Shown piece by piece: positions 3,455-57,682 of a stretch of DNA of 64,000 nucleotides (the first letter of the stretch is position 1; every line of letters begins with the position of its first letter). The notes under the pieces are model-generated. The model saw nothing but the letters and a program-made list of their open reading frames with translations. It was not told the DNA's origin and made no database searches. This stretch comes from Echinarachnius parma (Eukaryota; Echinodermata; Echinoidea; Clypeasteroida; Echinarachniidae), in assembly GCA_037951105.1 (NCBI GenBank), contig JBAMJV010009099.1, positions 1-64,000 on the forward strand. The letters run 5' to 3'. The translations under genes were made by a program, and so were the position numbers.

Positions 3455-6400
3455 CTACTTACTTGGCGAGAAGGCATAGCGGTGTCGTCTGTGATGTTGC
3501 CTGTAGTAGGGGGACGGGGAGCGACGGTGATAGTACATGGGCGAGGGACTGCGCCGGTAGTAGTGAGGGGAGGGCGTGCGCCTGTAATAGGGGGAAGGGG
3601 ATCGGTAGTACGGGCCCCCTCCACCTCCCCTCTCTTTGAACGACTCTCGCTTTGGCCTGGAAAGATTATAAAAACAACAACATAAAATGCATTATAATTT
3701 TATGTGAGCATTGGTAGTAAGGTGGGTGGAGTGATAGCAATACAGGGTAGAGGGACTGCTCCTGTAATAAACAGGGGATGTGCATCTTTAATAATCTTTT
3801 GGCCTGCAAAGTTTGACAAAAAAGGAAACACAATACATTAGAATAAGAAGTAAGCGCTGGTAGTAAGGGGAAAGGAGTGATTGCAATAGTGGGGGATGGC
3901 GTGCGCCTGTAATAGGGGGAAAGAGATCAGAAATAAGCGCTCCCTTCACCTTCCCTTGAACGACTCTTGTTTGGCCTGCTAAGGTTTTTAAAACATACAT
4001 AATACACAATACATTATAATTCAAAATGAAAGTATTAAAGATAGTGTCCGTCTTTTGCATGTGTCTTCAAATTTTAGTCAAACATTACATAAACAACAAG
4101 GATACTGCTGTATGTACATCAAGTTGGTTACAATTAAAAGTTCACAGTGATAACAAATTCAAATGATGCAAGAAGAAACTAATCGCTTTGTAGGAGGGGT
4201 GGGTAGTTATTTATCATAATTATTGGTCTTCTCGGTCGGTCTCTTATACAGAGAGCAATTATTTTTTAAATGTTTCTTTCCCTTATAACCTCATCAAGAC
4301 TATTTGATTTTGCTATAAAATGTATTCTCCATAGATCCTAACCCAAGTATTTTCAAGACCAGTCCTAGGCCCAATATCATAAAAATTCATAATTAATCAT
4401 ACAAATAATCAGTTGATCTTCACGTTATGCATTCCTGAACGGGTTAACTTAAATCATTTACTACAGAATCCTGTTGTGCCATGTTTTTAACTCTGTGAGA
4501 AATGCAATATATCGTAGGCAAAGGGTTAACCCGTTGCTTATGGGAACTGGATGGGCTATGTACAAAGTCTATGGGGATTTAAAACTCCGAAGTGAACGGG
4601 TTAAGTGCAGCCATCGTTGCTCACCGAGTGGGTTTGCCCATGTAGACACCGGGGGTGGGCGTGTGAGCCCTCTCCGTAATGGAATAGTCCACTCTGATTC
4701 GCCGTCCATCCACTTCCGTGCCATTGGTACTCGTACGTGCCTAGCAAAGAAGGTGGAAAACAGGTCATATCCCAAATGGTTCTATGATATGTGAAAATGT
4801 CTGTGATAAGTTTGAGTGTTCAATTTTTCTACCAATACAAACATTACCCAAGCTTCCACTCTACACTAGCATACGATTACCGTACATAGCACCCTATCAT
4901 GATTAAATAATCACAATATATGCCCTATCCGACTATACATCTTATTTAGGGTGGACACGGAGTGTTTATTTGGCATCTACTTCAATATAATACTAATAAT
5001 TCGAACATATGTATAGCGCAGCTACTATATATATAAACTCTACTGCGCTTATAAAAAGCTCCTTTTAAGTGAACAAAAACAAACTAAACCAGACCGTATA
5101 AACAAACAGTCTTTTGTAAAGGCCTGCAAAAACAAATGAGTTTGTATCATCTTAAATGTATCTACAGATTCAATTTTTATAAAATAAAATGGTAAGCTGT
5201 TCCAGCAGTTTTGGGGCGACACAAACAAATGCACGATCTCCCAAAGTTGACATACCTCCATAGCATCGTCAACATTGCAGAAAAGGACAAAGGCAAATCC
5301 CCTGGAGCGTCCAGTCTAATAAAAGAGAAGAGGGATACACAAATCACACAACATGGTCTTGAACTACTAATTGATAATTAAGCTATTCATTGAACTACTA
5401 TATAATAATAGTTATTTATTGATCTACTAAATATTAAAAGTTACACATGTACATCTGTTAAACTAGTATTAATGGTTATTTGTTTAACCAGTTCACTTTG
5501 AGATACTGAAATCCCCATAGACTTTGTACATAGCCCACCCGGTTCCCATAAGCAACGGGTTAACTACTTTAAAAATACTGGTTATTTGAAACAGGGCTAT
5601 TCATGTAAGTATTATAGCGCTTTACATATATATACTCGAGTCAATGAATACAACATGCAATATTTCCTACACACAAAGTGCAATTTTCCCACTCTGCATG
5701 GGAGCATTCCAGCTAGCTGCCTGTAAGGTACATAAATGCTGTGACATTGATCATGCACATCTGATTGCGCCACAACATCTCCACTAGTGGTCATTGTAAA
5801 AAAAAAAAATATGCATATTATTCAGGGTCATAGCTATGAGGGACTATGAGGACTATGAGGGCTAGGGGGCACCCCCCCCCCCCCCCACCACACACATAAT
5901 ATTTGCACCCTCCTCCCCCACCAAGAAAAACTTCTTATTGCTTCAAAATCATAAAAATTTTAGGAGAAACCCATCTCCTTTAGCAGTGACTCAGTCTTGG
6001 TCACAAAAATGCTAGGCACCCTGGTACTGGTGCCAACCCACTGGGAAATTTCCAGCTATGCCAAGTGATTATTCTGATTTTGATTGCAGATCTATAATAG
6101 ACCACATGAGGCTTGAAGTGTTCAATCAGATTCTTCAGATCATGTTTATTCATAAATAGGCCGAGCCAGTGAGCCTGAAAACATCCAAACTAGTGAGGTA
6201 GATGCTTTTATGTTACTTTGAAGAAATATTACAACCTCGAATTGGTTACATGGTGATAATTTTATGTTAATTTGACGAAATACTACAACGTCAAATAGAC
6301 TACCTAGTGATCCTAGACCACGTTCACACACACCAACGGACCATAGAGTTCAAACACTCCATTCAGATCACGTTTTGTTGGGTAGAGGTTGGGTCTTTGG

Positions 6401-9400
6401 GTCAAATTTGAAAAACCATGCTTTTTGTTAAATTAAAGAAATACTGCAACATCAAATAGATTACTTGGTGATCGTAGACCACGTTCACACACCCCTTTAG
6501 ATCACGTTCTATTGTGTAGAGACTGGGAGTCCGTGCACGTACCAAATTTGTAACACCATACTTTGTTATATTCAAGAAAATGTAAAAGTCTTGAAGAATT
6601 ACGGTACCTGATGATCATAGACCACGTTCGCAGACTCCAATGGGCCATAGTGTTCAAACACATCCCTCAAGTCACGTTCTGTCGTGTAGAGGCTGAGTCC
6701 AAACACACCCAAACTTTTGTTCTCTTCTGGATTCTCCTGTATGAGCGAGACAAGAAGAGATTGATTCATTTAAAGTTAGTTGCAGTTTATTATCATTTCA
6801 CATGAAATTGTTATTGCATTACATTGCAAAGAAATTTGACTGGTCAGAGGAAGACAAAAAAACAGTAAAAAATTAAATTCTAACCAGGAGGAGATTGTTC
6901 CTAGACTATAATAGTTGGAGGTGCTATAGACCCTTTTAGTATACGGTTGCAATTACTGAAGTATAACCGGTTTATCACAAGAAAGCTGAGATTTAAGACA
7001 TACCCAAATCAGAAAATTGAAATATCGCAACTTCCAGAGCTACCAACATTAAAATTCAACAATCAGGAAGATTTAGGGGAATTTCATCAGAAATCAGGGA
7101 GATATCTATCAAATGCATACAACCTAATGACAATAATCTTTCAATAATCGGGGAAAATCGGCTGATGGGATGAAAATTTCATGAAATCCAATTCAGTCAT
7201 TTTGGTATTATCAGGGAGACTAGGCAGCATTGAACTTCATTAATCGGGATTTGCGGGGACAGCCGACAAGGAACACATAATTCTAAGGCTGAATTCAAAT
7301 GTTATGAACGTTACCCTGTTGCCTTGGTGACGCCTCCTGCCTGACATGGGCGAACGACTGTGACTTCGACCTTCACGATATCGCCTGCAGGAGGGAAGAG
7401 AAATAGCAGTAATATACCGTATTTGCTGGTGTATTTAAATAACCGCAGGTTTTTACATACAGAAGAACTTGCAAAAAGGGGGAGCGGTTAATACACAGAG
7501 ATAGAGAAAAATATTTCATTAAAATACCAAATATATATATATATGTCTATAATATCAGTTCATGTGTCCAAAGTAAAAAGATGATCTAGGCTTTCCTGTT
7601 ATTAATTATGCTCAAATCAGAAGCAAGTATGTGACTTGTGCTGTTTTATGTACAAAAATCTAACATATATGTTTAAAGGAGAAAGCATGGGATGTGTGAA
7701 TAGTTTGATTATGTTGCAAAGATTCCCATTTCCCATTCCCATTTTTCCCCTCGAAAGACAACCCCAAGTTGGGGATGCGGTCAATACACAGGTGTGGTTT
7801 ATACACCGGCAAATACGGTAGAATGGCCGAGTCATTACGGTTATTTTATAATATATGTGTGGTTAATACACAAATATAAAGGTTACGGTTATTTTATAAA
7901 CTGGGCCCCGAATGATTTGCACTGGTTGGGCACTGAAGGAAAAAAAGGACAGATTTTTTGTTTTCATCCTGTAGTGTTGACGGTCATAATACGACACTGG
8001 GCAAGGCTCCAAAAGGAACTTACTGCTTGGAGGAGCATTTATTAACAATTTCTCATATTAAAAAAAAGTAAAACCCTCGTAACGAAGTGCAACCCATTAA
8101 CCAATCTTCATAATCAGCTACCAAATTAAAGAGAATAACTTGTATTAAAACACAAATAACATAAAAAGTGCCTAAAACTTATTATAACTAACATAATTAG
8201 CACAAGCTATTCATGAGCTGTTAGGCATATTGCTATGATGGTTTTATAGATGGATTATGCTAATATTATTGGTTGTTAACTTTTAATGTTATTCATGATT
8301 TATTTTTCAAAGCTTAATTTAGAGTTTAGATGAGGACTACAGCATAATACACGCAAACCTGTTTCAGTGGCCACCTGTTTATAGCAGCCATCCTGTCCAT
8401 AGTGGCCAACTAATGAGTAATGTATTCCCATGCAGAGGAAAACAATGCTATATAGCTAAACCTGTCTATAGAGTACCGAAGTAGTGACGTCACATGCTTT
8501 TGTTATGGCATAGTAATGGTTCTAAACAACTTTTCTTTTCATACTGGCCTGTGGCAGTGGGTTGGAGCTGGACAAATGCCTTCTTAGCAACTGCTAGATC
8601 ACCAATTCATTGCTTGCCTGACATTGTTTAGAACCATCACCCATGGCAATGAATAGCTCTGACGTCACACTTCGGTACTCTATAGAGGTTACCTGTTAAC
8701 AGTGGCCACTGTTCTTGTTTCCCTTGGGTGGTCACTATACACAGGTTGGACACAAATACTTACGAGTGCCTGTGTGAGCCGTGTCGCCTCTCATAGCTGC
8801 GCGAATGGCTGTGGTGTCGCCGTCTGTGTCGACGTGACCGGGATCTAGACCGTGACCGGGAACTACTGTAGTGGTGCCGAGAGTGCTTGTGTCGGCATCG
8901 TGACCTCGAACATGACCTCGATCTGGAACGGCCAATCGCTTTGTCTACCTTCTTTGTTTTCTTTGCATCTTCTTTCTCGTCTTCTTCATCCAGAGTTGCA
9001 TTAGTAACTTTGGGCTCCTAAAAAAATAGGGTATGTGTTATTAACATTTTTATGACTCATTTTCAGCGCCAATAGCCCAATGGCAATGGAAAGGAAACCA
9101 TAGACCATAATGACTTTTTAAATTAAATGTACTATTTTGAGATCGTTTTTGGAAATAATCATCAGTGCAGTGCAGTGCAGACTGCAGTGCATGAGTGACC
9201 ATTCATGACTAAAAATGGTCAATACTCTGTCTCGAGTCAAGTCTTACAATTACAAAAATTATGAACGTTTGTCTTAAGACATAAAATGGACGGAATTACC
9301 CAAATGATGTTTGGGTTTTGTGCACTCTCTCTTTCTAATTCTATACTTTCCCTCTCTTTTAAAATCTTTCTTAATCTGATTTCTTCATCTAAATCTAATT

Positions 9401-10200: not shown

Positions 10201-10619
10201 AATCTATATGTTTTCATGCCTGGCCTCTTTTATATTTAATTACAGTCTGTTAATGTTGGCCATTATTTAGAATGGCGCTACTGTAGTACTGTAGCGCCCC
10301 TAATATGTTTTACAGGCAAAATGTAGAGCGAGGTATTTAATGACAATTTATTATGCAGGATCAGGACCATTTGAGTTTTGACATATTTGTAAATTTTATT
10401 TTTAGATTTTAGATAACAATTTCTATAAACATTCAAAAACGTCATTATGCATGATCATGCTACGTACAGACTTAAACACAACAGCAAATAATTTGGTTGG
10501 TAGAATATTATGAATAATCATCTATTAGGGTCACGATACGTCATTTCAGACTTTTGTGAAAACTCTGCATGATACATTTACTAAATGAACCGCTACTCAC
10601 CATGTTTTATCACAAGAGT

Positions 10620-11499: not shown

Positions 11500-14400
11500 A
11501 TGGCGACCTCAACGGTGGAAGTGGAAAGACTTCACCAAGGTAAAGGAGGGAATCTGTCGACGTCGACGAAAATAGAGCAGGGTGAGGAGATGGAAGATGA
11601 CGATATATTCTTCACGGAGGAAGCGTTTGAGATGTACTCCCTGAGCAGACTCCACGAGAACATCAGATCGCGTCAGCGAGATGGGAGCAGAACTGTGACG
11701 AGGCCTCGGAGAGGGAGGTACATCTATGATGATGATGATGATGATGAAAACAGTGGTGTTGGTGATGGTGGTGGTGGTGGTGATGGTGATGGTGATGGTG
11801 AAGGTGATGGTGATGGTGATGATGATGGTGATGGTGATGGTGGGGATGGTGATGATGATGATGGTGATGATGATGGTGGGGATGGTGATGGTGATGGTGA
11901 TGGTGATGATGCTGATGGTGATGATGGTGATGATGATGATGGTGATGGCGATGATGATGATGGTGATGATTATGTTGATGATGCGTGCATGTGATGGTGG
12001 TGATGGTGATGGTAATGGTGATCATGGTGATGTTGATGGTGCATGTGGTGGTGATGGTGATCATGGTGATAGTGATGATGATGATGATGATGGTAATGGT
12101 GGTGGTGGTGATGGTGATGGTCATGGTGATGTTGATGTTAATAATAGTGCCATGGTGATGGTGATGATGCATGCTGATGACAAAGTTGATGATGATGATG
12201 ATGACACTAATCATACTAAAACTGTTATTTGTGAAGTTCTACTACTATTGGCAAGTAACTTTTAATTGTAGTAAAATTGATGATGACGATGATGATGATG
12301 ATGATGATGTCGGCAATGGTTTATCAGGTTATGAAAACAGGTGAGAAGTTGAAATGAGCATTTAATAAATCCAAAACTCAAAGGTGTACAAAAATAATTA
12401 TAAGGGAATAATTCGCAAAGAAAGTTAATTCCTTCTCTTTTGTCATTCTCTTAACTTCTTTATTTCCCTTTTACTTTATATATATTTGTCAAATTGCTTC
12501 TAAATATGTGTAGACGAGGCACATAAAACTATGGGTAAATTTTTATTATGTTTGATACCTGTATATTTGGACTTTTGCTTCATTTTATTGTTCGCTGAAT
12601 GAAAATAGTTACATCGAATTGACCTATTGATTTTAATACAGAAACCCCTCTGAGAAAGCAAAGGAGAAGCAGCTAGCTAAGAAACAGACCCTGAAGGCAG
12701 ACCAGGCCACCCCAAAAGTTACTAAGCAACAACAAGCTGTTGCTAAGCAACAGCAGCCCAAGCCAAAGAAAGTTACTCCGCTGTACAGTCTGGCCTCACC
12801 TTACCCGAACCTCAACTATCCAACATTCTCCCGACTTACCATTGGCCAGCACAAGAAGTTCATTGAACTCCAGGCTAAATACGGGTCAAAGGGCACCAGG
12901 GTGACGACCTCGCGGGAGTCGGCGGAGCTTCAGCACTGGAGAGTGAGGATATTTTTTGGTTTGATTTGCTTTTCACATATATTACTGGAGTAGAAATGAT
13001 TTCTGCCCAATACTTTCCAAGCTTGTTCTAGCAAATTAGTACTTCTCAATGCCCATGAGACGCCCCAGGGAGTGGAGATGGTGCACACAATGTGTGCTGG
13101 TTTGCTTTGTATCCTATGATCGGGGTAATAATATCATTGTAAAGATGATTATCAATCATATTAGGCGCTATATAAATTGACTATATTATTATATTATTAC
13201 TCATTTCTAATAGATCCTGAATGGACTTACGGAATTAAAGGTTGAAAAGTTAATAGAACAGGCAAATTATTTGGTATCTAGGCTAATTACTAAGTCTAAT
13301 GATTTATAAACCATTTGATGAATATGACACCATAGGTATGGTAAAAATGTGTATTTACTAGGGCTCTTCAAATTTGTTTGAAGTACTTATTTATAATCAT
13401 CTGAAAGGACTTACATAAATGCTTTGTAGTTTGAATTTTCTCAGAACAAACAAAGTACAAACAAGTTTTCTTAGAGGCAAATTATCAAGCCTGTATTTGT
13501 TTGTTTTGCTCTAGGATAGAAGATAAAAGCAAGTAATTATTCAAAACATTGACTTATTCTTTCGTTACCGTAGCAACTTGGTGCCATGATCTACCAAGAC
13601 CAGCAGGACTTCAACGGGTTTGCCGAGTTTGCTGCCAAGCAACATTCAGAGGTCTACATGAGCATGTCCCCTGCTGCTGTGAAATATGTCAATGTAAGTT
13701 ATTAAAAAATTCATCTTGGGGGGGGGGGGGGGGGAGGCCGGGGAGCAGTCACATTTGTTATTTTGTTGTTGACTGGAGGCACATTTATAATTCTTACTTT
13801 GACAGTTATTATGAGCTCACTAAATCATGCTGAGACTGATGTATAAGAAACTTAAATGGAAGTAAGACTGATTTGGAATCAAAAGGCGTGAATGACACTT
13901 TGTTCAAATAACTACATTATGTGAGGACAGCTGTCCTTTCATGGTCAATTGATTTTGTTTTGAGCAATGTCTGATGTTATTTAGTATACATTAAATCTTT
14001 TCACATGTTTTCGCATGTGCTGTTCCATCAAAATTAAATCATAAACTTTGCCCAATGTTTGTTTTGTCCTCCTTAGGATGCTCTAAAGACTAATGTTGAA
14101 AGAGTGTTATCACTTCCTCAGCACTACGCAGTTCTGCAGACATTTACTCTCAACCCAGGCGTTCCACTGCCATCAGACCCCTCGCTACAGAGAATAGGGG
14201 CACCAGTCTTTCTGGTAAGTTGTACTGTAGTGAAAATGTTTGTTTGGGGCTCTGACGATGCTCTAAAGGCTAACATTAATTGACAGAGTGTTATCACTTC
14301 CTCAGCACTATGCTGTTCTGCAGACATTCACTCTCAACCCAGGCGTTCCACTGCCGTCAGACCCCTCGCTACAGAGAATAGGGGCACCAGTCTTTCTGGT

Positions 14401-17400
14401 AGGTACATGTAGTACTTTAGTGAAAATGAAGTGTTTGTTTGGGCTCTTAGGATGCTCTGAAGACTAATGTTAAAATAGTGTTGTCACTTCCTCAGCACTA
14501 TGCTGTACTGCAGACATTTACTCTCAACCCAGGCGTTCCACTGCCATTAGATCCTACTCTGCAGCGATTATGGGCTCTAGTCTTCGTGGTAAGTAGTACT
14601 GTAGTGAAAATGTTTGTTTGGGGCTCTGAGGTTGCTCTGAAGGCTAACATTAATTGAGAGAGTGTTATCACTTCCTCAGCACTATGCTGTACTGCAGACA
14701 TTTACTCTCAACCCAGGCGTTCCACTGCCATCAGACCCCTCGCTACAGAGAATAGGGGCACCAGTCTTCCTGGTAGGTAGTACTGTAGTGAAAATGAAAT
14801 GTTTGTTGGGGCTCTGAGGATGCTCTAAAGGCTAACATTAATTGAGAGAGTGTTATCACTTCCTCAGCACTATGCTGTACTGCAGACATTTACTCTCAAC
14901 CCAGGCATTCCACTGCCATTAGATCCTACTCTGCAGCGATTATGGGCTCTAGTCTTCGTGGTAAGTAGTACTGTAGTGAAAATGTTTGTTTTGGCCTCTT
15001 AAAATCGTGCTTAGAAGGCTAATGTTGAAAGAGTGTTATCACTTCCTCAGCACTATGCTGTTCTGCAGACATTCACTCTCAACCCAGGCGTTCCACTGCC
15101 TTCAGATCTTTCTCTGCAGCGAATAGGGGCACCAGTCTTCCTGGTAAGTTGTACTGTAGAGAAAATGTTTGTTTTGGCCTCTTATGATGCTCTGAAGGCT
15201 AACATTGAGAGAGTGTTATCACTTCCTTAGCACTACGCTGTTCTGCAGACATTTACTCTCAACCCGACTTGGCAGAATTTTAATTTTAACTTGCCTACGG
15301 CAATAGGGCAAGAGCTAGTGTGGAGCCATGCGTCTAGGGGCACTAGTCTTCCTGGGCGAAATTTTTGCTAAAGCAGACTGTTTTTTTTTTACAGAGTTTG
15401 ATGCTAATATGTTGACCTGATAGTTAATTAATATCAAAATTCATTTAATGATTGGTCGTATTTAAAATTAGTTATTTGTTAATTTTTATTTTGTTTCCAT
15501 TAGGGCAAAGTTCCAGAGCTATCTGTACCTGGTTTGGATGATAAAAAGGTGACACTGAACAGGAATCCAGTCGAAGGAGAACCGGTACCAACAAAAAATT
15601 ATAACGTAAGTGTATTTCTCCATTCCAGGGGGAAAATAACCCTTTTTCCCCCCTGGAGGCTACTTTGATCTGCTAATTTGTCTGCATGAAAAAAAGCACT
15701 CAAAAATTTGTTTTGCATTGAACTCTTACCAGGGCTCTTTTATAATTTTCAGGGGATCTTTTGGGGCATTTTCGGGGACTTAATTGCCCTGTGCCCTGAG
15801 CAATGTCGCACAGAATGTCTACATTTTCATTTCATATTTGCAATGACTGTATAACCTCACTATAGAGTGGACCTTGCGACCTTGGGACCATGCAAATTAA
15901 ATGCATAATCATAATAAATCTTGTTATATCAGGGTGGAAAAATAAAAGAATCTAAAGAGATTGGACCAGCGAAGTTACTTTGTTATGTAGAGAGGGTATT
16001 GTTAAATCAGAGCTCATTATAATGTGGTTCCGCTGTATAAATAAAACAAGCTTCCACAATATTTTTTTTTGTTTTACTGGCCCGTTCGGGCAAGTCAAAT
16101 GATAAATCTTAAAATTGTACCTGCCCAATCAGAAAAATCACTTGCCCACATACCTCTACATCGGGCAATCAAACAAGACCATTTATGAATTTGACTTGCC
16201 TGATATTAATTTTGTCTTGCCCTGGGCAATAGGGCAAGTGTTAAGTGTCGAGCCCTGATTAAAACCTTTTCTCTTTTTCTTTTTTCAGATATCAGATGAG
16301 AGTAACATACAGAAGCTTGCCCAGATGCACAAGGCAGACATAGTCCTGTCCAGTAGCAGCCTCCTTACCTTGGTGAACAACCATGCACCCCTCTATGACC
16401 AGCAGTGGGAGATCCCAGTTGAGGTCAAAGGTCAGATATCCTGTATCCTGCTCAGATACTTAGTTTTGTTTCACAGATGAGCAAGATCTGTACACATGTT
16501 TCATTTGTGAACTAGATGCTTCTTGTAGACCTTGTTTTTGTCAAATATTGTTGCTGTGCATTTGGTATACATTATATCATGTTATGGATACAAACACTGA
16601 AAACTTACTATTTTTGTAATGCAACGTTTCGCCGGTAGACTACCGGCTTCTTCTGGCTACTAGTAAGTTTCCATTTAAAAAATTCATAACATGATATATT
16701 AACTTCGACTGGATGAATGATAATCTACATCAACTTTAATATTTGGTATACCTTAGTTGCTGATGCTGTGGACAAGCAGTTAAGTTTGTAGTTTCACAAG
16801 GCAGACAAAGTCATTTCAATGAGCAGCTCACTCATACTAGTGTACAACTGTGCTCCTCTCTATTTTGGTATAACTCACATTCATAACCTATCATTTTAAG
16901 TTGTCCCTTTACTTACCAGAACCCGATGGGCTATATACAGAGTAAATGGGGATTTCAAAATCTCAAAAAGAATTGGTCAATGCAGAACAATATTCCAGCC
17001 GTTAATTCAGACTCGTCTTCACACGAGGTTGTCTGTGTCCAAAAACCCCTGATGAAGCATATATGCTGTGCCAAGCTCACATTATTGCAAGTTACAATAC
17101 ACGCAAATGCGATATAGCATTAAAATCCCTGGCACTTTAAGAGTTAAGGGAAACTTTACCTTTTCATATTATGTTAGGATCCTTTCTTGCTGTTCTTAAT
17201 TTTCCAGCAGTTAATTCAGACTCGTCGCCACACAAGGTTGTCTGTCTCCAAAAACCGCTGATGAAGCACGTCTATCATCCCCACGAGGCGAGCGCCCTCT
17301 ATCACAAGTTCCTGCTCAAGCGGTTGCTGACGGTTGACTCCAGAGACCGCTATTGCCAGGTATTAAAAAAAGAAAATGTACCATAATGATCATTTCTGAT

Positions 17401-20400: not shown

Positions 20401-23400
20401 AAGACTTCACCGGGTAAAGCTAAGACATCTGCTGCGCAAGGAAATCTTGTAAAGATGTCTGCCGGTCAAAGTAAAACTGCAAAAGTACCATCGGCAGGTG
20501 CCAGTGGGAAAAAGAGCCAGGCAGAGTCAACAATTGATGAGATCATGAGGCTCCAAGAGAAGATGCTGACAAGGCAGAAGTCTGGTAACGGCATCCCAGC
20601 AGCTGCCTCGACACCACAGTCCCAGAAGACATCACCCGGTCACAGAACCGCTTCAGGGATGCAAAACCAACAGCAACAAACAGCTGAAGGGCTTCCAACG
20701 AATGCAGCAGGACTCGGAAATGAGGGTATGGATCTTGAGGACCTCTCCGAGGGCAACTATGCCTACAGCCTCTGGAAGTTTGGACGGTTACGGCTCTTAG
20801 TCCGGAGCAAATCTCACGGGATGCTGTCCCCAGAGGGACATCAGCAACAGGAGGGACAGAGTGCTACGGTTGCAAGTGTTGTGACAAAGATGGAGTCTCA
20901 GTCAGAGCTCGGGCTCGGAACGCAAACCCTTGGCGACTTCACGAGAGTGTGGCTCAACATGTACCTGAGACCTGGTTCGAAGGTCATGAGAGGTTAGTAG
21001 AGTAGTAGGGTTAAGTAATGCTCACTCTTTCAATAAGAGGTTGCAAATTAGTTTTCCATGTATTTTTTTCAGATTTTTTTCTTCTGAATAGCAGAATTGT
21101 TAGGTTTAGGATTAGAGGTTGTGGTCAATTTTGGGCTTCCAATTTTGTTTTGTTTCAACAATAGATCCCTAAGCTTTCTCACCGATATGGTATTGATAGA
21201 ACATGGATGATTTATTCACAATCTCTCACTTATTATTATGCAGTGTAAAAATGTGGCGAGATTTGATTAATCTATCTCGTCTTGATTAGTTTGTTTTCTG
21301 AGCAATGTTAAGAAAATGTTTGAGAACTCCCGAGAAATTAAGCTTACAAATGTTCTGTTTAGTTTAATAGTCATCGAAACAGAAGCTCTATTTGATAAAC
21401 TTAATTGTTATTAACTAAACAGTATATTGACACTTGCGACACAAAGATGCATTCAAGGTTATTTGATAGCTAATCTTTGTCCTTTTTCCTCTCATGCAAT
21501 CAGGAAGGATTGACTCAAGAACTTCAGAGATTCTGAGCTGGGAGTGTTTGGATAGCTCATGGATTGTTCAGTCACAGCAGTTATTCAAGTAAGTGAATGT
21601 TACAAAGTTCAATTAATCCTTTCCATACTTAAAATTGCAAAGCGGGTAGAAATGATGAAAGTTTCCCTCTTTTCAATTTTCAAAATACTCCAATCCTGTA
21701 CGAATTTTGATGAAAAACTGATTTTTGCTTTGAATTGTTCTCCTTTTCAGTGAGATAGCAGTGGATCAACAAGCCTTCCCATTAAAAAAAAATATGCATG
21801 ACTTTTAGCTCTATGAATAAGTAATGGGTAGGAACAACAATATTTAAAATTGCATAAACTAAGAGAAATAAAGTGTTTCATGAAAAGAAAGGCGTTGGCG
21901 TTCGTACAACGTCTTAAATTCCAAAGTTTATGTTATTATTTGTTTCGTTTCAATCTGACGTAGATAAAACCGTAAAATTAAAAAAAGTTACTAGATCCTT
22001 TTAATGATAGTTTCAGTGATCATCTTTGTGTTTTTTTGGTGTGTTCAGTCCTGCCATGTGTTTGAAGATGCTCTATCACATACTGGTGAAGCTGGCCGGT
22101 CTGTCTGAAGGGAGATACCTGTTACGACACAGGCCGGGTGACGCCCATGTCTGCATCTACCAGTGCATGGAGCAAGCTGCCAAAAATGTCCGGTAAGAAT
22201 GCATTTCATATCTCATTATTGGCATGAAGCGAGAACCCAAATAGATTTGTTCAATGAAATTAGTCACGTACTGGTGAAGCTGGCTGGTCTGTCTGAAGGG
22301 AGATACCTGTTACGACACAGGCCGGGTGACGCACATGTCTGCATCTACCAGTGCATGGAGCAAGCTGCCAAAAATGTCAGGTAGATTCTTTTAGAAATAT
22401 ATTTTTATTATGCCTCCGCCACCGCCAACGAAGTGGACGGAGGCATTATGTTTTCGGGTTGTCCGTCCGTCCGTCCGTCCGTACGTCCGTCCGTCCGTCC
22501 GTCCGTCCGTCCGTCCGTCCGTCCGTCCGTCCGTCCGTACGTCCCGTTTTCGTTCTCGCGATATCTCAAGAACCGGTTGACGGATCAATTTCAAACTTGG
22601 TATGAGTGTACATATTGGGGTGACAATGATCTGATTAGATTTTGGGGTTCACTAGGTTAAAGGTCAAGGTCACAGGACTCAATATATGTTAAAAAATGCC
22701 TTGTTCTCGCGATATCTCTAGGTTGACAGATCAAATTCAAACTTGGTATGAGTGTATATATTGGGGAGACAATGATCTGATTAGATTTTGGGGTTCATGA
22801 GGTCAAAGGTCAAGGTCACAGGACTCAATATATGTGCAAAAATGCCTTGTTCTCGCGATATCTCTAGAACCGGATGATGGATCAATTTCAAACTTGGTAA
22901 GAGTGTACATATTGGGGAGACAATGATCTGATTAGATTTTGGGGTTCACTAGGTTAAAGGTCAAGGACAATATATGCCAAAAAAAGCATCCTTCTCACAA
23001 TATCTCAAGAACCGTTTGACGGATCAATTTCAAACTTGGAATGAGTTACATACACATCAGGGTGGCAATGATTGGATTAGATTTGGGGGGTCATGAGGTC
23101 AAAGGTCAAGGTCACATGACTCGATATGTATGCAAAAATTGCTTGTAATGGCAAAATCTCAAGAACTGAATGTCAGATTTCAATCTAACTTGGTACCTGA
23201 ATTTTTCTTGGGAGCCAATGTAACCATCAAAGTTTGGGGTCTATGGTCAAGGTCACAGAACTCAAAATATATATGAAAAAAGAAAAAAAAATTCAGTGCA
23301 CGTTATTTTGGGCTTGATATTAAACATCGCGTCATAGCGGAGGCATAATTTTCGACTGCGCGCAGTCGAAGATCCATCTAGTTTCCATGAATCCAGCTAT

Positions 23401-32060: not shown

Positions 32061-32186
32061 AAATGATGTTCTTGATGACTAGAATACTAGAATACTACCA
32101 AGGAGAAGGCGCATTGCGTAATCAGTTGCTTCACTCTGCCTCTCGTAAGAGTTTTTACTTCTCATCTCCCCCAGTCTTATCATCTA

Positions 32187-43000: not shown

Positions 43001-46000
43001 CCTGACCGTAGTTGAGGATGGTGTCCAGAAACGCCAGTTCTAGGAAAATTCCAGATTGACTTGTGCCCAACAGCTGCCACAAGGTTAGAGATACACCCTA
43101 TGAGTAAAGAAACAAACTCAAAGGTTTAATTGTTTTACTTGTTGTAACAAATTTGAGGGATTGAAAAAGAAGCAACAAAAATAGTTTTTTTTTCCGGGAT
43201 TCGAACCAGAGACCTCCGGATTGCTAGACCAGTGCTCTACCAGCTGAGCTATAGACAACCATTACGCTGTGTTCGTCCCCAGAAACCCCTTAGTATTCAA
43301 TTTTAGGGATTGTCAGACTTGCAAAGAAATGCAACAAAATCTTTGATCATACATGTAGTTGAGTATTTGGTCCGAAAATGCAGAGTACTAGGAAGATTCC
43401 TGATTGACCATAGTTGAGAATGGCGTCCAAAAATGCAAGTTCTAGAAGGATTTTGATTGACTTGTGCTAAGAAGGCTGCCACAAGCTTAGCGACACACCC
43501 TGTGAGTAAAGAAACAAACAAAAAGCTTAAATTTTGAAATGCCGGACTGAGGCCGGCTCCATCTCAGTCCACCTCTGGATGTGGTTCGAAGCCGGCCTCA
43601 GTCCCGCAATCGGTATGTGTAACAGGGGTAAGTGGACTCGGGCCGGCGTATAAGCGGAAGTGACGTATGCGGCCCGATCAACATTGCGTCATCGGTCGTC
43701 AAACTTTGCAAACTTCTTTATCTCCAGCCAGCAGCGCAGCCAGTACCGGCATTTGCAATAACAATACGGTACGTATAGTTACACGACATATTCCGAACTG
43801 GTGGGCGACAATTCATATTATTACCGTGTACAAAGCATCATCATTTCTTGTATTTATTTGTATTTTCTGGAACTACGAGCAAAAATATTTAACTTTATTT
43901 TCCGACGGTACCGACTACTGGTGAATTACATAGCGATGTCGATACCAAGGAGATTCAAAATGAGTGCGATCGCGCGAAAATATCTAGCGTATGTTTCAGT
44001 GCGACCCAAAGTCAGGTGACTCGGGTCGCGTGAATCATGTGAATAGGCGACATGAAGCCAGCCTAGGTGTATGTGTAACAGGGGTCCAGACCATGTGTAA
44101 CAGGGGTTTAATGATTGCAGGCATGAGGCAGGCCCCGGGGCCGGCTTTAAAAGCCGACGCATGTGTAACAGGGGCAATAGACAGCCATAGACATGTTTGA
44201 CTGCTCATATAGAAAGAACCATTTTGCCTTCCCGGCTGATGCCAACAAGCACTGAATTAACCAATGCCATAATAAAGTCTCTACATAACCGAGCATGGTG
44301 GCTTAGCGGTTAGTGTCCGCCTCATGCACAGGAGGCCCCAGGTTCGAACCCTAACCAGGTCATACAAAAGACTATAAAACTATATACCTTCTACCATTTA
44401 GTCAGGCGATCAGCATTTGTAGAATGGATAAGGGAAAGTTCAACACACAGAGTTACCAGAGGACTAGCCCCCTTCTGTAGCTTTCGCTACGTTTAGTAGA
44501 CGCACGGCCTAGGGCTAATGAATTGGAGATTGGCACCACCTTATGTGCCAAATTGGCACAGGAAGGACTTTAATTTTTTTAATAATACAGTCTACTTACC
44601 ACAACCATGGATAGCACCAGGGTGTATAACAGAATCAGATGTCTGCCGAGCTGATGCCTCTGCGATTCATCCAGCACGATCCTATCCTCCTCCTCCCGCG
44701 ACTCAAGATCGCGAAGGTTGCGCTTAAGGAGCATCCGGCGACAACGATGCACCTGGCTCCGCGAGCATCCGAATTGGGAGCTGCACATCTGCTGCTGAAT
44801 GGAGGCGTTAAGCGCCGGGAAGTCCTCGATGTCGGGGACGATGGGACGGACCACGGTGCTCAGGGAAGACGATGCAGATGATGGTGTAGATGATGATGCA
44901 CTGACGCCAGATTCAGAGTGGCTCCTGGCAGCGCTTCCATCTGTGAAATCGTGATGGAAATAAGAAGTCATGTTGTTATATTCTAGATTATGGTGATGCT
45001 CAAAGGTAGGTCATAACATTCATATTTTTACCCATAAACCATATATTCTTCATAAATTCATGCTGAATGGAGGCGTTAAGCGCCGGGAGGTCCTCGATGT
45101 CGGGGATGATAGGACGGACCACGGTGCTCAGGGAAGACGATGCAGATGATGGTGAAGACGATGACGCGCTAACGCCAGAATCAGAGTGGCTTCTTGCAGC
45201 ACTTCCATCTGTGAAATAGTGATGGAAATAACAAGTCATGTTGTTATATTCTAGATTATGGTGATGCTCAAAGGTAGGATGGTTATCAGAGAGGATGATG
45301 ATGGCAATGACGATGTACATGCACCAAGGCAGGAAGCTTTGTATTTGCAATAATCATGATGATGCTAATGCACAATTACCCGAACTGAAATGGTTTCTCA
45401 ATGCATTTTCATATACCAGTGATGATAAGAGAACATGGATCATCATGATCATCATCATCATCAACATCAACATCATTATAATCACCCCCATCCATCCATC
45501 CATCATCATCATTGTCATTGCCATCATCATCACCACCATCATGAACATCATCATCATCATCATCATTGTCATCCTCGTTGTCATTGCCATCATCATGAAC
45601 ATCATGAACATCATCAATCATCATCATCACCATCACCATCACCATCATCATCATCATCATCATCATCATCACCATCATCATCATCACCATCATCATCATC
45701 ACCACCATCACCATCACCATCACCATCACCATCACCATCACCATCACCATCACCATCACCATCACCATCATCATCATCACCATCACCATCACCACCATCA
45801 CCACCATCACCATCACCATCACCATCACCATCACCATCACCATCACCATCACCAATCACCATCACCATCACCATCATCATCATCATCATCATCATCATCA
45901 CCATCATCTCTTTCTACTTCATACCTGGCACACCATTTGTCTTCTTCAAGTCGACAGCTGTTCTTTGGTCATCTTCATTGTCTGAAGAGTCTACACCGAC

Positions 46001-49000
46001 AAGTTGTTGGTAGCCCGGTCGGTGGAATCGGTCTAGCTGGTGTTGAGCCAACAGAGCCCCAATCGTGATGATCAGGTTGAGGAACAAGATAATGGTACTG
46101 GCCACACACTGAACAAGAACAAAATATGATCAAACATTTAAAAGATATATTAATGGCCTTAACCCTAAAACGGCCGGGCTATTTGAGGTCTTCCTAAGGC
46201 CGGGGGGGGCCATTATGGCCACCCCTTAAGATCTTGGCCGCGAAGCAAAGCGGCCGATCGCTGCGAAAATGTGCACGCATGTCAAGTGAAGTGTATATAA
46301 TACTATGGTAATTTCAATTTTACTATGGTAATTTCAATTTTTTGAAAAATTCATTCATTTGCAAATTTATGGAAATTTATGCAAAGGACATTCATATTTT
46401 TACCCATAAATCATATATTCTTTATAATTAAACATTGATTTTCACTACATATATTATTTAGACCAATTTGAATAATAATACAACCAAAAAATTTCGAAGA
46501 GCCCGGTTATTCCTTATGTTTTCTATTGTTTTGATAATTTCTTTTCTGTATTTCTTTGTTTTTTTAACTTAGTATTTGATTGTTTTTGTAACGAAAGGTC
46601 CGATTTTCTAAAAATTGGTTTAAAAGATGCGCAAGACTCGAAAGAAAAAAATCACTAAGCGGCGGGGCGTCATCCTTACGCGTTTCTGAGCAATCAGAAA
46701 AATCATTATCCATAGGCATCATGGCAATAAGAACCACAGTTACAACAAATATTTCAAATTATAATTCAATTGCATCAATTTCATCATTTAAATTTACCAA
46801 ACAAAATGACTGGCATTAGTTGTGTCTCATCTAATTTAACATCTTTTAAATCTGTTCCCTAACAGATTTTGCAATCTCTATCTATAGAATTCATTTAGAG
46901 CCTATCAGGTTCCCATAGGTAATGGCTTCATAAAACCTTTTTTTTCTCCTTTTTTAAAACTTGCACATTCTATTTTTGCATTTTTATTGTACATAAATGC
47001 AAAATGAAAATTGTATTATAAACAATTATGGCACCTCCTGACGACACACCAGTATATTTTCTCAATGCCCATGAGCCGCTTAGAAGGAATGCTCCCCAGG
47101 GAGTGGAGATGGTGCACACAATGTGAGCTGGTTTGCATTGTATCCTATGACCGGGGGTAATAATATCATTGTGAAGCGCTTAGAGATGATTATCAATCAT
47201 ATTAGGCGCTATATAATTTGGGTATATTATTATTATCCCAGTATAGCTTTGCAGCAGCTGCTTCAAGGGGTTAACCTCATCAATTATCAGTGAAACTTAC
47301 TTGCTGCTTCTCGATGTAAAAGAGATAATCAACTTCACTATCAAGTGGCATCACAGCGATCAGGATTCCAGCTACAAAGACAGGCACACTGGATGGGAGA
47401 TAGTGATTACATAATAATAATAATAATAGACAAGCATTTATATTGCGCCATCAAGACATTCTATTCCGAGGCGCATCATACTGTACAGTATATTATTACC
47501 CTGGCTGTAGCCGAGCTGCCTGCAAGCGTGGCAAGCAAGAGCATCAAGCATTTCAAGGAATAAATTCCTGCCAGGTACCCATTTACTACACCTGGGTTGA
47601 GAGCAGCAATTGTGGATAAAATATCTTGCTGAAGGACACACGTGCCGCGGTTGGGAATTGAACCCACGACCCTCGTATTGAAAGACGAAGGCCCGAACCA
47701 ATATACCACGACACTCACATAATTGAATTTCAACTATCAGCAAATTTCATTGATTGTATAAATCTTCCTTCAAATCTTTCAACTACAGTAAACAAAATCT
47801 GTGTACAGTGACTATCTGAGGGTAACAACTGTAAACAAGTGACCTCTATAGACAGGTTCCATGACATATTTTTTTTCTTCTCTGCAGGGATCACTCTTGG
47901 TGGCCACTATAGGCAGGTTGGCTGCTATAGATAGGTGGCCCCTAATAAAGGTTTGACTGTACGAGTGAAAAGGGGCACTGTTAAATGATGTGCTGGACTG
48001 AATAGTAGAGCATCTATTTATAACTACAGTCAAACCTGTCTATAGTGGCCACCCAAGGGAGACAAGAAATGTGGCCACTGTAGACAGGTGACCTCTATAG
48101 ACAGGTTCAATTACACTGTTTTTCTCTGCAAGGGATCACTTTGAGTGGCCACTATAAGCAGGTTGGCTGCTATAGACAGGTGGCCGCTAAGACAGGTTTG
48201 ACTGTAGTTTAAAAACAAGAGGAACTAATATATGTGACCGGCTATAGCAAAACCCTGCACCCTGTCGGTAATTCTTGTTTTGAAGAAAGTGGCATTTTAA
48301 TGTGTGTAAAAGACTTATGATTGTAAAATTTAAACAATAATATCTTCGCCAATTATTGACCAATTTGTTAGAACAAAGCATCAAATAAAAGCTTGTGATG
48401 AAGCCTTTCTAATGGTATGAAAATCTACATTTGGATTTTTTACTGACAAGTGCAGGGTTTTGATAAAGCCGGTCACATATGATATTAGGCACTACATGGC
48501 TTAAAAGGAAAAAATAGTTAGATTCATGAAAGAATAACGACAGCCATAACTTTACAAGAACTACAAAAATCAGATAATTAAATCTCGTCAATGCATTATT
48601 TTTGGATTTAAGATATCAAATGAAAAAATAAGATTTTCTAAAAAGAGAAAAATGAGCACTGCGCTTGAAACTCACCCCCATCCGTACAAATAAAACCATC
48701 CACGATTCCTAACCACAAAGCATGTGCTGCGATAGCGCAGAATGAACAGGCCTAGTGCCAACATAGCCGTCCAGCAACGAGCGCCGAACACGCCAACAAG
48801 GAGGAATAGAAAGTGGAAGAGTCTTGGCCAATATGATGAGAATTCAATGGAGTGGCACAGGATCACGCTCAATGCCCCAATCGCCTGCAAAAACAAAAAC
48901 AAAGGGAACAAAAGTTGCTTATACTTCAGGGGGTGTTTCACAAAGATCCTAAGTTGAACTTAACTCTAAGTTGGGACTTAAAAAGTATGGACAGCCGTTA

Positions 49001-52000
49001 GTTTCATTGAATTTTTGTGTAAAAGTCCTTAAAAAAGGCATCAAATGTTGTTTCAAATCATGAATATTTGTATACTATCAAGGAGATTTCATGTTCTTCA
49101 TGTAAAATTTATGAAAAGTCTAAAATACTTGCATGTTTGCTTATGAATATATTTTATTCCAAGGCTACAAATGGCTTTCCATACTTTTTAAGTCAAACTT
49201 AGAGTTAAGTTCAACTTAGGATCTTTGTGAAACACCCCCCAGTTCAGTTTATTATATGACCAGAATTTGAAGGAGTGGCATAGGATCATGCTCAATACGC
49301 CAAGTGCCTGCACAAAAAAAAAATGTACCAAAGAGGGGAAACAATTAAGTTGTTTATACTTCAGTTCGGTTCAAGTGCATAAAACAACACTAAGATAAAG
49401 AAAACAAAATGTTTTATATTTCATGGAAATTATGGTTTAGATTAAAGTAATATTTGTTGGTTTCTGCGTTTGAGTGCCAAACACGCCAACAAGGTGAAAG
49501 AGGGAGTAGAAGAGCCTTAGCCATAATTGAACAAAATTCCCAGGAACATAATATGCTGTACCACCATAAAAACAAATGCAGAACTACTGACATTCACATG
49601 TCAAATTCAGGGAGATTTCAAACAACATTAATCAAGATTCTGAAATCCCCATAGACTTTGTACATAGCCCACTTCCCGTAAGCAAGGGCTAAGGGAGATC
49701 AATGATACTCGTTCTTCATCCATTCGAAGTAAGTTTAAGTTTTCTCAATTTTAATATTGATAAACTTTGATATCAATCAGGGACATAGTTATGAAATACA
49801 TGCATCAGAATGAGAAATAATCTTCCCTAATAATCAGAGAGATTTTCAAATTTGCCTGTCAGGATGTGGTGGAAAGATCTGTACATTTTCAGGGAGCCTC
49901 CTGCGAGATCAGGGAGGCTCTGCAAATGGTTTTAATCATTTTCATTTCATTCATTCATTCATTCATTCATTCATTCATTTTATTTTATTTTGTCCAACAA
50001 AAAGGGGAAAATCAATTTGGCAAGTTGCTCAATACATTCTGGTTAAAAAAACATTTAGGATAAAAACATCTAAATTGACAAAACAATAAATATGAATATA
50101 TAAATCTACAAATAAATATGAATATATAAATCTACAAATAAATACAATGCATATATACCTACACATATGTCATAACAATAATAATAGATGTGAACAATAT
50201 GTAACTAGCACATAAGGAAAATCTAAAAGAAGACGAAAAGGGAAGAAAACTACTAACAGTCAACTCCGAAACACAATTTAATTTGATAAAGATTACAATT
50301 ATTCGAAAAAATAATAGTAATGCTCACCTGTGCTACAATAAGATTTGCTGTGAACTGGTGAGGGAGGTGGGAGATCTTCTTACGCAGAGCAAAGATGATG
50401 AAAACCCAGATCTGTAAGGGGTGGAAAATTGGGGAAAATAAAAGACTTCAAAAATATTCAAGTAGATTTTAAAATTATGTAATAATAAAACTAATATTCT
50501 TTTTTTTTATTGAGGAAACAAAATTGATTGCCCTAAAAAATGAATTTCGTGGAGGTTATTAAGAAACATGATTTTGTTAAGACCCCTTGCAGAAATTAAT
50601 ACAGACAATGCGCATACATAAACAAAAGCATCCATACAAGTATAATCAATGCCATCAACAAAATTAATTTAGACTTACCGCTGACGCTAAACCAACACAG
50701 CTGACATCAAATGCTCCACTGGACAGAGCGTTGTGGTACTGGCCTTCCGTCGCCATGGGAATCATCAACATCGTCGCGGTGATGAACATGAAGGGACCAG
50801 ATATGAACGTACAGTACACCATGGAAGGAGCAATCTAAGAAAAGAAAGCAAAATATAAACATTTATTTTTTTAATGAAACAAAATAAAACTTCAAAAATT
50901 GTCAAAAGATATTTTATTCTAAAGCAGAAAATAACATGAATATTAAATTATGATATTAAAGTTTAGTATAAAATATTTTGATGTATTCGGGCTTGAGAAA
51001 CATTGTATGTACATGTAGGAGTATTCTTAGTAGCACACCCCGTGGGTCTTTCCATATCAACGGATTGCTGGTAATAGCTGGCCTAAAGGAAGACTTTAAG
51101 TGCAAAAAGAAAACCAAATAAATTGTATGCATCTCTGATTGTCATATCAACTCCCTACGGAGCATTCCAATTAGTACACCCCTTGGGTCATACCATATCA
51201 ACTGATTGCTGGTAGTAACTTGCATATAGGAAGACAGTAGGTGCATTGGGGATGTTTCGATACAAGAAACCAAATCAATTATACTTATCTCTGAGTGTCA
51301 TATTGACTCCCTAGGGAGCATTCTAACTAATCCTTTATTAAGGTCTTACCATATCAACTGACTGTTGGTAGTAGGTGGCATACAGGAAGACGGTAGGTGC
51401 AGTGGGGATGGACCCATACAGGAAACCAAATCAGGCATACGCATCTCTGAGTGTCATATTGACTCCCTAGGGAGCATTCTAACTAATCCTTTATTAAGGT
51501 CTTACCATATCAACTGACTGTTGGTAGAAGGTGGCATACAGGAAGACGGTAGGCGCAGTGGGGATGGATCCATACAGAAAACCAAATCAGTTAGGTATAC
51601 GTATCTCTGAGTGTCTTATTAACTCCCTAGGGAGCATTATAACTAACACACCCTTTGGATCTTAGACTTACCATATCAACTGACTGCTGGTAGTAGGTGG
51701 CATACAGGAAGACGGTAGGTGCAGTGGGGATGGACCCATAGAGGAAACCAAATGAGGCGTACGTGTCTGTGAGTGTCGAATTGCTTCCACCCGGGTTGAA
51801 AGCATAGATGATCTGGTTTGTGACCAGTGGCAAGACCAATCTGTGAGTGTGATTTAAAGGAGACATTTTTATCAATTTGATTTCTTTTTCTCACTATCAT
51901 TGATGTCTTCTTCTACGTATTACATGTAACTCCACAATTATAGAAATTTATTCTATTTATCCATCTTATCATAAATCCACCTACCCATCCATCAATGTAT

Positions 52001-55000
52001 CTATGAATCTATCCATATTCCTGACACATTCATCATATTCATCAAATATCAATCATTCTAAAATGTCTTAACCCATTCTTTCATCTGCCATCCAATCTAT
52101 CCATCCATCTATTCATTCATGTATCCAACCGTCGATCAATCTACCGTATTTGCTGGTGTATTAACCGCACCTTTTTTCAAAAAAAAAGAAAAAAAAGGGG
52201 GTGCGGTTAATACACAACCGTATTAACCGCACTTTTTTTTTTTTTTTTTTTTTTTAGGGGTGCGGTTAATACACCGGAGCGGTTAATACACCGACAAATA
52301 CGGTATCTATTCATTCATGTATTTAACCATCCAACAATCCATCTATCCACTCATCCCATCAACCCATTCATCTATTTACACACATATCTTCCATCCATTA
52401 ATTAATCCATCCATTCATCAATGAATCCATCCATCTATCACTCTATCCATTCATCACATCTTTCTATTCACCTTTTCACCCATACATATCTATTCATCCA
52501 TTCATCGATCAACCAACCAATCTCTACTCACAGTTTGAAACCAATCAGCAACGACGGAGCAAGCAACGCCATCCCTCTCTGTTGCTTGACTTTCCCGACC
52601 ATGCTCATGCCCAGCACAAACAGAGCCGTCGCCCCGAACGAATCGGCGAGCGTGGTGAAGATGTCATCGATCACGGCAGGCATCGTCTGGGAGAGGGCGA
52701 AGTTGAGGACGACCCCGATTACGACGGACGTGAAGACCGGGTTGGTGATGAGCCCCTTTATGACCATCCTGTAGAGTACGGAGAAAGACAAATTTTCCCA
52801 GTGAAAACAAATTAAAGATGTTGGAATATATATGCACACTAGTGGCCAAGCGCGACGCCGTGCATGCACGCATAGGATCCTGTATACAGTAATCGCTTGC
52901 GCTCTGAGTCTTTTGGATATGTTTGATTGACTCATCAACAGTTTTCCCCTGATCGGGATTTAGAGCGCATCGCCACAGACATTGGAATATATATGGAAAA
53001 CTGGCTAAATTAACTAATAAATGCAAAAACAGAGACTTTGGTTGTGGCGGGACTTGAACCTGAGACCTCAGTCTTACTAAACCTATGCTCTAACCAACTG
53101 AGCTTCGAGTTCATGAGGTCCTGGTTAATGGTTCATTCCAGTGATCCCTTTAATGCCAAGTGCTAGTCAGAAGCTATGAAAACCTGGGCCCATATTCATG
53201 AAATCCCGCTAGCTTAGTTCCTTGCTAAGTCTTATTTGGATGATGTGGCTAAGAATTATACACAAGATTGTTTAGTTGCGAACTAAGGTTAACTTAAAGG
53301 GTACCTATGGCTTACCCAGTTGACCCTTGTGGGGACTAGGAAAACTGTTTGCTGCTCAATAAACTGCACATCTAAAATAGACTTAGCAAGCTAGCAGGGT
53401 TTCATGAATATGGGGCCTGACATATAAACTTTAAAGAGAAACCTACTTAGGAGGATGCGCCAGGGATCACACAAAGGGATTTTGTATAATCAAATATAGA
53501 CACTTTATATGAAAAATTATAAAAAACAAAAATCTCACCAAGCAACTGCCGTCTTGCCCCTTCTTGTCTCCGAGTTAGAATTCTTTTGGACCTCGAGCGA
53601 TAGAAAGGACCATGGGTTGAGGAATAGCAGGTTGATCGGTGCGAAGAGATAGATGTACTGGATCAGCTCGGGGTTGTTGACCGAGTACATGGCTTTCACT
53701 GTGAAATAAAAACAAAATAAAAAAGTGTTTGTCATTTAATTAATAACAAATAATGGTACTAGTTAACTAGAACACATGAACCTGTGTTGTTCTTTGTGTG
53801 GTGGTCCCCTTTAATGGACAAAATAAAGAATCTAACTTATTGGACCTAGAGCGAAGTTGTTGCTATGTGTTGCAAATACGCTGTACATCCCAGCCTCTAA
53901 AGGGAGTAACTTTCGTAACTCTAGTAACTTTGTTGACATGTGCACAGGGCTCCAACATAGTCTAATGCTCATGCAGGCCAGAAGAGCCTGACACAATTTT
54001 TGTCTTCAATGTTTAAATCATTTAGTTAATGTACACCTTTAAGAATCTTACCTATTGGATAGCCTAGGGCAAAGTCGTTGCTCTGTGTTGCAAATACGCT
54101 GTACATCCCGGCCTTCCCTAGCTTCTCAGATCGACACAGGATGAGGGCTCCTATATAGACTACTATGTACACTATTGTCTTGGCTAGTAGAACACTGACC
54201 AAAAATAGCCAATTAACCTGCAAAGAAAGACAAATTACAAATATAATGTCAAAATACACCTTGGCGTAAAATTAAAAGGTCAACCTACTCATTGCAGACA
54301 ATGTTTGCCAATTGCTGCTGACAGATTTAAATTTCTTTATAAGCAGTAAAGCATCACTCATTACACAACATGTACAAACATGTAACTATTTTTTGTCATA
54401 GTCAGGGTCTAAAATAGTTGGCCACTGGTCCAGGGCCATTAGAACTTTTACTGGCCAAAACTGGCAGCCATGGAAAACAGAATTTGTATTTTGTAATGTT
54501 ATCTTTTTAGCTTGGGGTTTCAGGCCAAGATACCTTGATTTTACATGCCATACTGGGCCACCAGGTAACATTGTTAGTTTCTAGTATTGTCATAGCTTTA
54601 CAAAACTGTTTTTCTTTCTTCAATTTTATATGCATCATTTAACATATATATACACAAATTTATGGGTATACAGTCAAACCTGTCTTAGCGGCCACCTGTC
54701 TATAGCAGCCAACCTGCCTATAATGACCACTCAAAGTGATCCCTTGCAGAGAAAAACAGTGTAATTGAACCTGTCTATAGAGGTCACCTGTCTACAGTGG
54801 CCACATTTCTTGTCTCCCTTGGGTGGCCACTATAGACAGGTTTGACTGTATGTTCAGCATTTAGCCATTCTGTTACAATGATGTTTATTTTTCAATTATT
54901 TATTGTGAGTATATTTGCACATGGCAGCCAACTGTATCAGATGTATCAGATTTCTACTGCAGAGGATACAAAAGAGAGCAGTCATGTGGAAAAATCAATC

Positions 55001-57682: not shown

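Follow-up and report, generated by a model that had tools for sequence, protein, structure and literature searches.

Partial local copies beside exons of three neighbouring genes, probably mirage-type tandem duplications

Direct local copies lie beside 14 of the 33 exons that we placed in the window, by which we mean the whole 64,000-nucleotide stretch analysed (contig C9083, positions 1-64000, GC content 37.6%) of a 1.2-Gb assembly in 14790 contigs. Coding and noncoding DNA alike contain stretches of about 90-500 bp that have been duplicated locally and in direct orientation, and we consider the copies to be mirage-type tandem duplications, a reading to which we give a probability of roughly 0.78. 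Mirages are tandem repeats spanning exon boundaries that have been described in a few amphioxus genes (PMC3087553).

Exon copies in the window

Three genes lie in the window, TRA2 and GPR155/LYCHOS on the minus strand and ICE2 on the plus strand; from reading frames and splice sites we assigned 7 exons to TRA2, 12 to ICE2 and 14 to GPR155/LYCHOS (exactly where the first exon of ICE2 ends is uncertain). This placement arrived at the same total as the original prediction, which had been made from the same DNA. TRA2 was identified by the Pfam domain RRM_1, ICE2 by NARG2_C at 30.5 bits, slightly below the Pfam cut-off of 30.8, and GPR155/LYCHOS by the Pfam domains Mem_trans and DEP together with solved-structure matches to LYCHOS chains. 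Below, exons are numbered after the letters T, I and G for the three genes.

Copies were identified by a sensitive local self-comparison of the window, counting direct near copies at 48 bits or more; with a reversed target, values of at least 48 bits arose solely in the satellite at 1-1413 or in a low-complexity stretch near 24.1 kb. All 13 exons for which copies had been predicted (T4 and T7; I4, I7, I10 and I12; G2, G5, G8, G11, G12, G13 and G14) have them at this threshold, and the fourteenth, I6, is marginal at 48.3 bits (Table 1). A possible weak copy of G9 (26.8 bits) was left out of the count.

Table 1. Exons of the window and the copies beside them.
Feature	Positions	Strand	Evidence
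TRA2 last (RS) exon T7	3455..3656	-	frame and splice acceptor
Partial T7 copies, acceptor side, three-unit array with the exon	3731..4021	-	self-comparison; pairs 3561-3699/3887-4021 (77%), 3651-3769/3798-3914 (72%), 3527-3589/3731-3793 (71%, 36.8 bits)
TRA2 RRM exon T4	6608..6736	-	Pfam RRM_1
Two decayed partial T4 copies, donor side	6202..6580	-	self-comparison
ICE2 exon I4, 138 nt	14077..14214	+	frame/splice map
Six more I4 copies, last partial, unit about 184 bp	14215..15265	+	self-comparison, start anchors
Marginal copy of ICE2 exon I6 (exon 16289-16430)	16790..16863	+	48.3 bits, 72%
Acceptor-edge copy of ICE2 exon I7 (exon at 17208-17359)	16989..17059	+	90%
ICE2 exon I10	22049..22192	+	frame/splice map
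Young I10 copy, also in C8082	22264..22383	+	97%
Old I10 copy with downstream intron, also in C8082	23608..23801	+	76%
Copies of I12, the last exon of ICE2 (24597-24749), interrupted by element 24962-25192	24819..25294	+	
Copies of G14, the last (DEP) exon of GPR155 (32187-32427), in units of about 175-190 bp	31563..32180	-	
Donor-edge copy of G13 (33434-33574), separated from it by a 430-bp element	32761..32880	-	
Copies of G12 (42937-43097) acceptor edge; inner copy 42.5 bits	43355..43533	-	
GPR155 exon G11	44600..44940	-	frame/splice map, self-comparison
50-bp filler between two G11 copies, absent from C8082	45011..45060	.	
Partial G11 copy: acceptor and 5' exon part, no donor; absent from C8082	45061..45278	-	
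GPR155 exon G8	48676..48884	-	frame/splice map
G8 copies, 311-bp palindromic element (48929-49239) between exon and copies	49254..49539	-	
Four decaying copies of G5 3' part and donor (exon 51672-51840), unit about 156 bp	51018..51664	-	
Copy of G2 (54052-54217) donor edge	53811..53896	-	

Exactly one exon edge, together with flanking noncoding DNA, is covered by 12 of the 14 clusters, and in two of these, I12 and G14, the edge is the stop codon of the last exon. The I4 cluster spans the whole exon with both its edges, and the I6 cluster covers no edge. Copies lie on the acceptor side of T7, I7, G8, G11 and G12, and on the donor or stop side of T4, I10, I12, G2, G5, G13 and G14. The edge-coverage table, in which the first-neighbour pair rows for G5, G14 and I4 realigned to themselves and carry no meaning, thus bears out two features of the original prediction, namely that copies occur on both sides of exons and that they take in flanking intron and a splice site. 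The graded decay and the one to six extra copies per exon that it described were also found, with pair identities of 66-97% and seven start anchors in all for I4, and its spacing of about 150-500 bp compares with nearest-copy offsets of 141-628 bp, measured as they stand. None of the 57 inverted or distant non-satellite pairs in the window touches an exon by 20 bp or more, in a count that omits pairs lying wholly within the four satellite stretches, and introner or transposon copies were rejected as a source on this ground and from the whole-genome searches described below.

Most copies are relics, since 24 of 30, read in the frame of the exon, are interrupted within the alignment by a stop or by an indel that breaks the frame. 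Pooled over exon-versus-copy comparisons, pN is 0.099 and pS 0.305 (0.117 and 0.339 without I4), and the noncoding parts of the window pairs are about equal in similarity to the exon parts in the edge-coverage table. As a side observation, no copy accompanies any of the nine window exons up to 120 bp long and 12 of the 16 of 129-209 bp have one, which is partly a detection effect; kinase matches (described below) up to 294 bp long also have copies.

Comparison with a second contig

A second contig, C8082, carries the region and is colinear with the window at four places. We take it to be the other haplotype, with a segmental duplicate as an alternative; substitution divergence between the two, gaps set aside, is about 5% in the one stretch compared. 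The comparison covers four of the 14 clusters (G11, I4, I10 and G5). At G11 there are two copies in the window and one in C8082, whose sequence runs uninterrupted through the site and is 98.2% similar to the exon-side copy and 94.5% to the relic; of the 14 sites that distinguish the two G11 copies, C8082 matches the exon-side copy at 11 and the relic at the other 3. The filler between the copies is also missing from C8082, and over 40 bp it shows 95% similarity to 46388-46427, a site some 1.3 kb distant. I4 has seven unit anchors in the window versus three in C8082. Both contigs carry the I10 copies and also the G5 array, the latter with 86% similarity, and the distances between the I10 copies suggest that an element of about 1 kb between two of them lies solely in the window's contig. 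Whole-genome searches, in which the best candidates were scored and very common words skipped, listed solely the window and C8082 for the I4 and G5 arrays, and the window, C8082 and their own third copies for I10. At the kinase loci, near-identical contig pairs share copies, and one such pair (L040/L041) seems to differ in unit number.

Because the presence of the G11 copy and the unit number of I4 differ between the contigs, we regard the copies as real and still changing. An assembly artefact might be suspected in an assembly of 14790 contigs with near-identical contigs side by side, but the copies vary in age and separate contigs carry the same ones, and we find this explanation scarcely credible. 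The idea that selection maintains the copies as alternative (mutually exclusive) exons or as splicing decoys draws on the I4 copies, which are nearly intact in frame, and on a pN/pS below 0.5. It is nevertheless very improbable in view of the preponderance of broken copies, the single cluster among 14 that spans a whole exon, and the differences between contigs at I4 (7 versus 3 units) and G11 (present versus absent).

Exons compared with random segments

For an independent sample we used protein-kinase exons, chosen by open-frame size from a family search and blind to copies, with exon edges set by the edges of the domain match rather than by mapped splice sites. The first set comprised 29 loci with an open frame of up to 150 aa, of which 27 were fetched; it omits C4441 and C12035, presumed from match coordinates alone to be near-copies of C3786 and C8997. 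Copies were found at 15 of the 27 loci, or at 12 of 21 once near-identical loci were merged. The second set took loci with an open frame of 151-260 aa and a match no longer than 340 bp; 11 of the 12 were fetched and then merged to 8. It omits C6502 as a presumed near-copy of C5638, and gave copies at 3 of 7 independent loci, with L056, chosen with its copy already known, excluded here and from the combined count. C12035 itself shows a repeated match in the family-search table.

Combined, 15 of 28 kinase exons have copies, as against 54 of 311 random tiled control segments (Fisher test, 4.5e-5), and the proportion for kinase and window exons together is 29 of 61 (2.2e-6 against the same control). 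Other controls gave 10 of 75 (a smaller first control), 19 of 90 (noncoding segments of the window, satellites included) and 20 of 72 (segments from the ends of the kinase loci, a sample that includes parts of exon arrays). Counted by nucleotides, a copy at 80% identity or more was found for 15.9% of the window exons, 15.1% of the kinase exons and 6.5% of the control, and a copy at any identity for 19.0%, 22.3% and 10.3%, respectively. GC content was dismissed as a driver (0.357 versus 0.364, p 0.49). A check of exon against intron density, which had been proposed along with the original prediction, gave an excess of about threefold at exons; the equal density in introns that would have spoken against an exon bias was not found.

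Noncoding DNA is affected as well. Elsewhere in the genome we found 56 local tandem clusters in 200 kb (twenty 10-kb stretches), 41 of them without a dispersed match in the sequence compared; the duplication process is general, and an exon-only effect is therefore rejected. A local process that keeps producing short tandem duplications, as had been proposed, is upheld by these data, as contigs differ and all sampled kinds of sequence are affected. The suspected exon bias survives in part: the excess was replicated on kinase exons, but the process is not exon-specific and the excess is partly passive. Among the twenty stretches, the one with most clusters (L024, C80:100001-110000) has nine in 10 kb, and also holds an SH3 exon and a weak tyrosine-recombinase-like frame.

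Origin of the copies

Under the mirage reading, a first copy would arise by break repair or by replication with template switching. Switching is suggested by the resemblance of the 50-bp filler at G11 to sequence 1.3 kb away, this one filler being the basis for the step. A unit crossing one exon edge leaves an intact exon and an adjoining partial exon with some intron, and the extra copy mostly loses its reading frame. Arrays would afterwards change length by unequal exchange, while purifying selection would keep one copy of the exon and remove duplications by which whole exons are added or splice sites brought too close. Part of the threefold excess at exons is passive, the pinned copy keeping pairs recognisable, and part probably reflects a truly higher rate.

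Some observations argue against simple decay. The pooled pN/pS of about 0.33-0.35 is below the value of about 0.5 expected for copies dead from birth, and some copies may therefore have stayed under constraint for a time or undergone conversion by the exon. Simple decay also predicts a clearer difference in similarity between exon and noncoding parts than the pairs show, and the lack of any offset below 140 bp among 29 exon offsets is not predicted by a simple model without selection on splicing.

Is the exon excess passive or targeted?

Raw counts overstate the link to exons because noncoding pairs fade from detection before one-edge pairs do: in a simulation of detection at k=0.25 (60 trials each), noncoding pairs were seen in 15% and one-edge pairs in 68%, and integration of the simulation table gives a detection ratio of about 1.5. 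Exon pairs also diverge more slowly, since one exon copy is held by selection, and exon parts are more similar than noncoding parts in 16 of the 25 best pairs having both (best pair per exon). The excess might thus be purely passive, with uniform duplication and exon pairs that stay visible for longer, one copy being pinned by selection and its neighbourhood shielded from deletion; deletion of noncoding DNA could add to this bias. By argument, the passive effect lengthens the visibility of a pair at most twofold. A rate model that includes detection, loss and selection, with loss rates assumed, yields exon/noncoding ratios of only 0.89-1.14 against 3.4 observed (0.74-0.94 with units below 140 bp barred at exons), and the excess persists after age matching. 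We view a wholly passive origin as possible but less likely than not.

The other possibility is that exon edges are true hotspots, where duplication is initiated. The divergence of about 5% between alleles could leave exons as islands in which homologous pairing works, or meiotic breaks near exons could be repaired by end joining that copies one side. After masking of coding sequence and removal of satellites, exons are still touched by 7 of the 9 clusters counted in the window, with a p of 0.010 when all exons are shifted jointly, 0.019 when clusters are placed independently and 0.0012 when one unit length alone is placed; the list used drops satellite pairs, the low-complexity stretch 24083-24515 and the 45016/46388 filler. 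Matching by age class gave an exon rate ratio of 4.5-5.6 on 54 exons, and a hand estimate, setting an exon identity of 86.5% against a control of 73%, gave an age-matched excess of about 3.4-fold. At passive factors of 1.2, 1.5 and 2, the probability of 29/61 is 2e-6, 1e-4 and 0.007, and that of the kinases alone is 0.013 at a factor of 2. The exclusion of GC content as a driver also favours hotspots, as does a human precedent, side-by-side duplications by meiotic break repair with hotspots over-represented near exons, as reported in the available part of PMC7615360.

On the other side, the window alone has P values of 0.003, 0.02 and 0.13 at the same three factors and is not unusual at the last; the excess by nucleotides, about 2-2.4-fold (15-16% versus 6.5% at the higher identity), is near the passive bound of two; age matching presumes neutral decay; and noncoding DNA also duplicates. 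A true exon excess of perhaps two- to threefold is likely though not secured, and targeting of exons by duplication is likely though short of proof. The fuller proposition, that in a highly heterozygous species exon edges are genuine hotspots, with exons acting as homology islands or break sites and about half of them bearing segregating or fixed edge copies, is more doubtful, and hotspots at exon edges as such we likewise hold to be rather unlikely. Should the hotspot reading be true, intron sliding and exon gain would have a constant source of spare splice sites.

Relation to known systems

The phenomenon itself is not new, as the mirages of amphioxus already represent it; new are the frequency at exons, the noncoding control and the haplotype comparison. 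In the available part of the amphioxus paper (PMC3087553), mirages are minisatellites with a tandem unit across either exon edge that includes intron and part of the exon, likewise in the window, and splice signals are retained in some copies of both. Mirage haplotypes with 6 versus 3 units compare with the 7 versus 3 units of I4 in the window and the presumed haplotype C8082. The units of BflGb6 measure 150-160 bp with 81-100% identity, and window offsets are mostly 140-220 bp; set against the published unit range of 10-160 bp, offsets of 141-628 bp are globin-like or larger. Apart from these somewhat larger offsets, the features compared agree with those of mirages, which are further characterised by undisturbed normal splicing and by somatic instability. 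Many copies in the window differ from mirages in being single, old and broken. The same source suggested that mirages might be general, called their mechanism unclear and reported them for few genes, whereas the present comparison covers 61 exons and 311 controls. A genome-wide mirage rate was not found in the literature searched, and the mirages of a few amphioxus genes are here turned into a rate, with about half of the sampled exons in one genome having a local copy.

Exon-like sequence beside exons is also known from tandem exon duplication, for which the available part of PMC9013439 gives the share of exonic nucleotides with a homolog at 80% identity or more as about 2% in human, 0.08% in fly and 0.06% in worm. 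The corresponding 15-16% found here within 800 bp was obtained by a different method, and the copies are partial and mostly broken; as for complete-exon copies with both splice sites and an open frame, 1 of 14 clusters is whole-exon and 24 of 30 copies are broken. Intron sliding and gain by tandem duplication, as presented in the part of PMC2891723 available, involve, as here, a duplicate of exonic sequence that carries splice sites and adjoins an exon; the copies in the window would be raw material for new introns. The human duplications of PMC7615360, in the portion cited above, are likewise local and direct, with template switching; such a mechanism may apply to the window. Models in which introns are gained or slide, or exons are duplicated, require intermediates such as these copies, and as the copies appear to segregate, the question whether they originate at exons can be put to the test in a population. 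They are also a practical trap for gene annotation.

Spacing and interrupting elements

Offsets in exon clusters, compiled by hand like those of noncoding clusters, lie at 140-220 bp in 22 of 29 cases (median 193), compared with 17 of 51 in noncoding clusters, and offsets below 140 bp number 0 of 29 versus 15 of 51. We infer a filter against splice sites placed too near the exon. The offset at G8 would drop to 112 bp with its inserted element removed. Units of nucleosome or Okazaki size, which the exon offsets at 140-220 bp bring to mind, are only a lead.

Breakpoints at transposon ends were considered and rejected. Copies are separated by elements at G8, at G13, at I12 and probably at G12, but in the near-identical pair L039/L055 about 300 bp are inserted between otherwise shared copies, with offsets of 174 and 485, which argues that elements interrupt duplications rather than cause them. 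Non-tandem copying was likewise dropped as an explanation for distant copies, as insertions account for several of the gaps.

Several repeats lie near the exon copies. The element that splits the I12 copies is 70% like 2225-2443, and the copy pieces on its two sides share an overlap of about 9 bp, a possible target-site duplication. A 65-bp repeat (15266-15330 and 16193-16257, 79%) replaces part of the last I4 copy, and a dispersed repeat of about 75 bp at 44506-44585, in the intron beside G11, has at least 39 matches elsewhere in the genome at 86-94%. Arrays of one family of about 150 bp, with the core GACCTTTGACC, occur at 22550-23281, 29155-30083 and 58161-58914, beside GGAC/GTCC repeats; the 19-base core has 6830+6476 exact matches in the genome versus 0 in a reversed control, and judging from the distance between I10 copies, the array at 22.4-23.3 kb seems to be absent from C8082. 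Towards the ends of the window, 63629-63993 is a palindrome of about 366 bp (92.9%), and 1-1413 is an array with a 147/293-bp higher-order unit, about 79% identical at a 283-bp offset.
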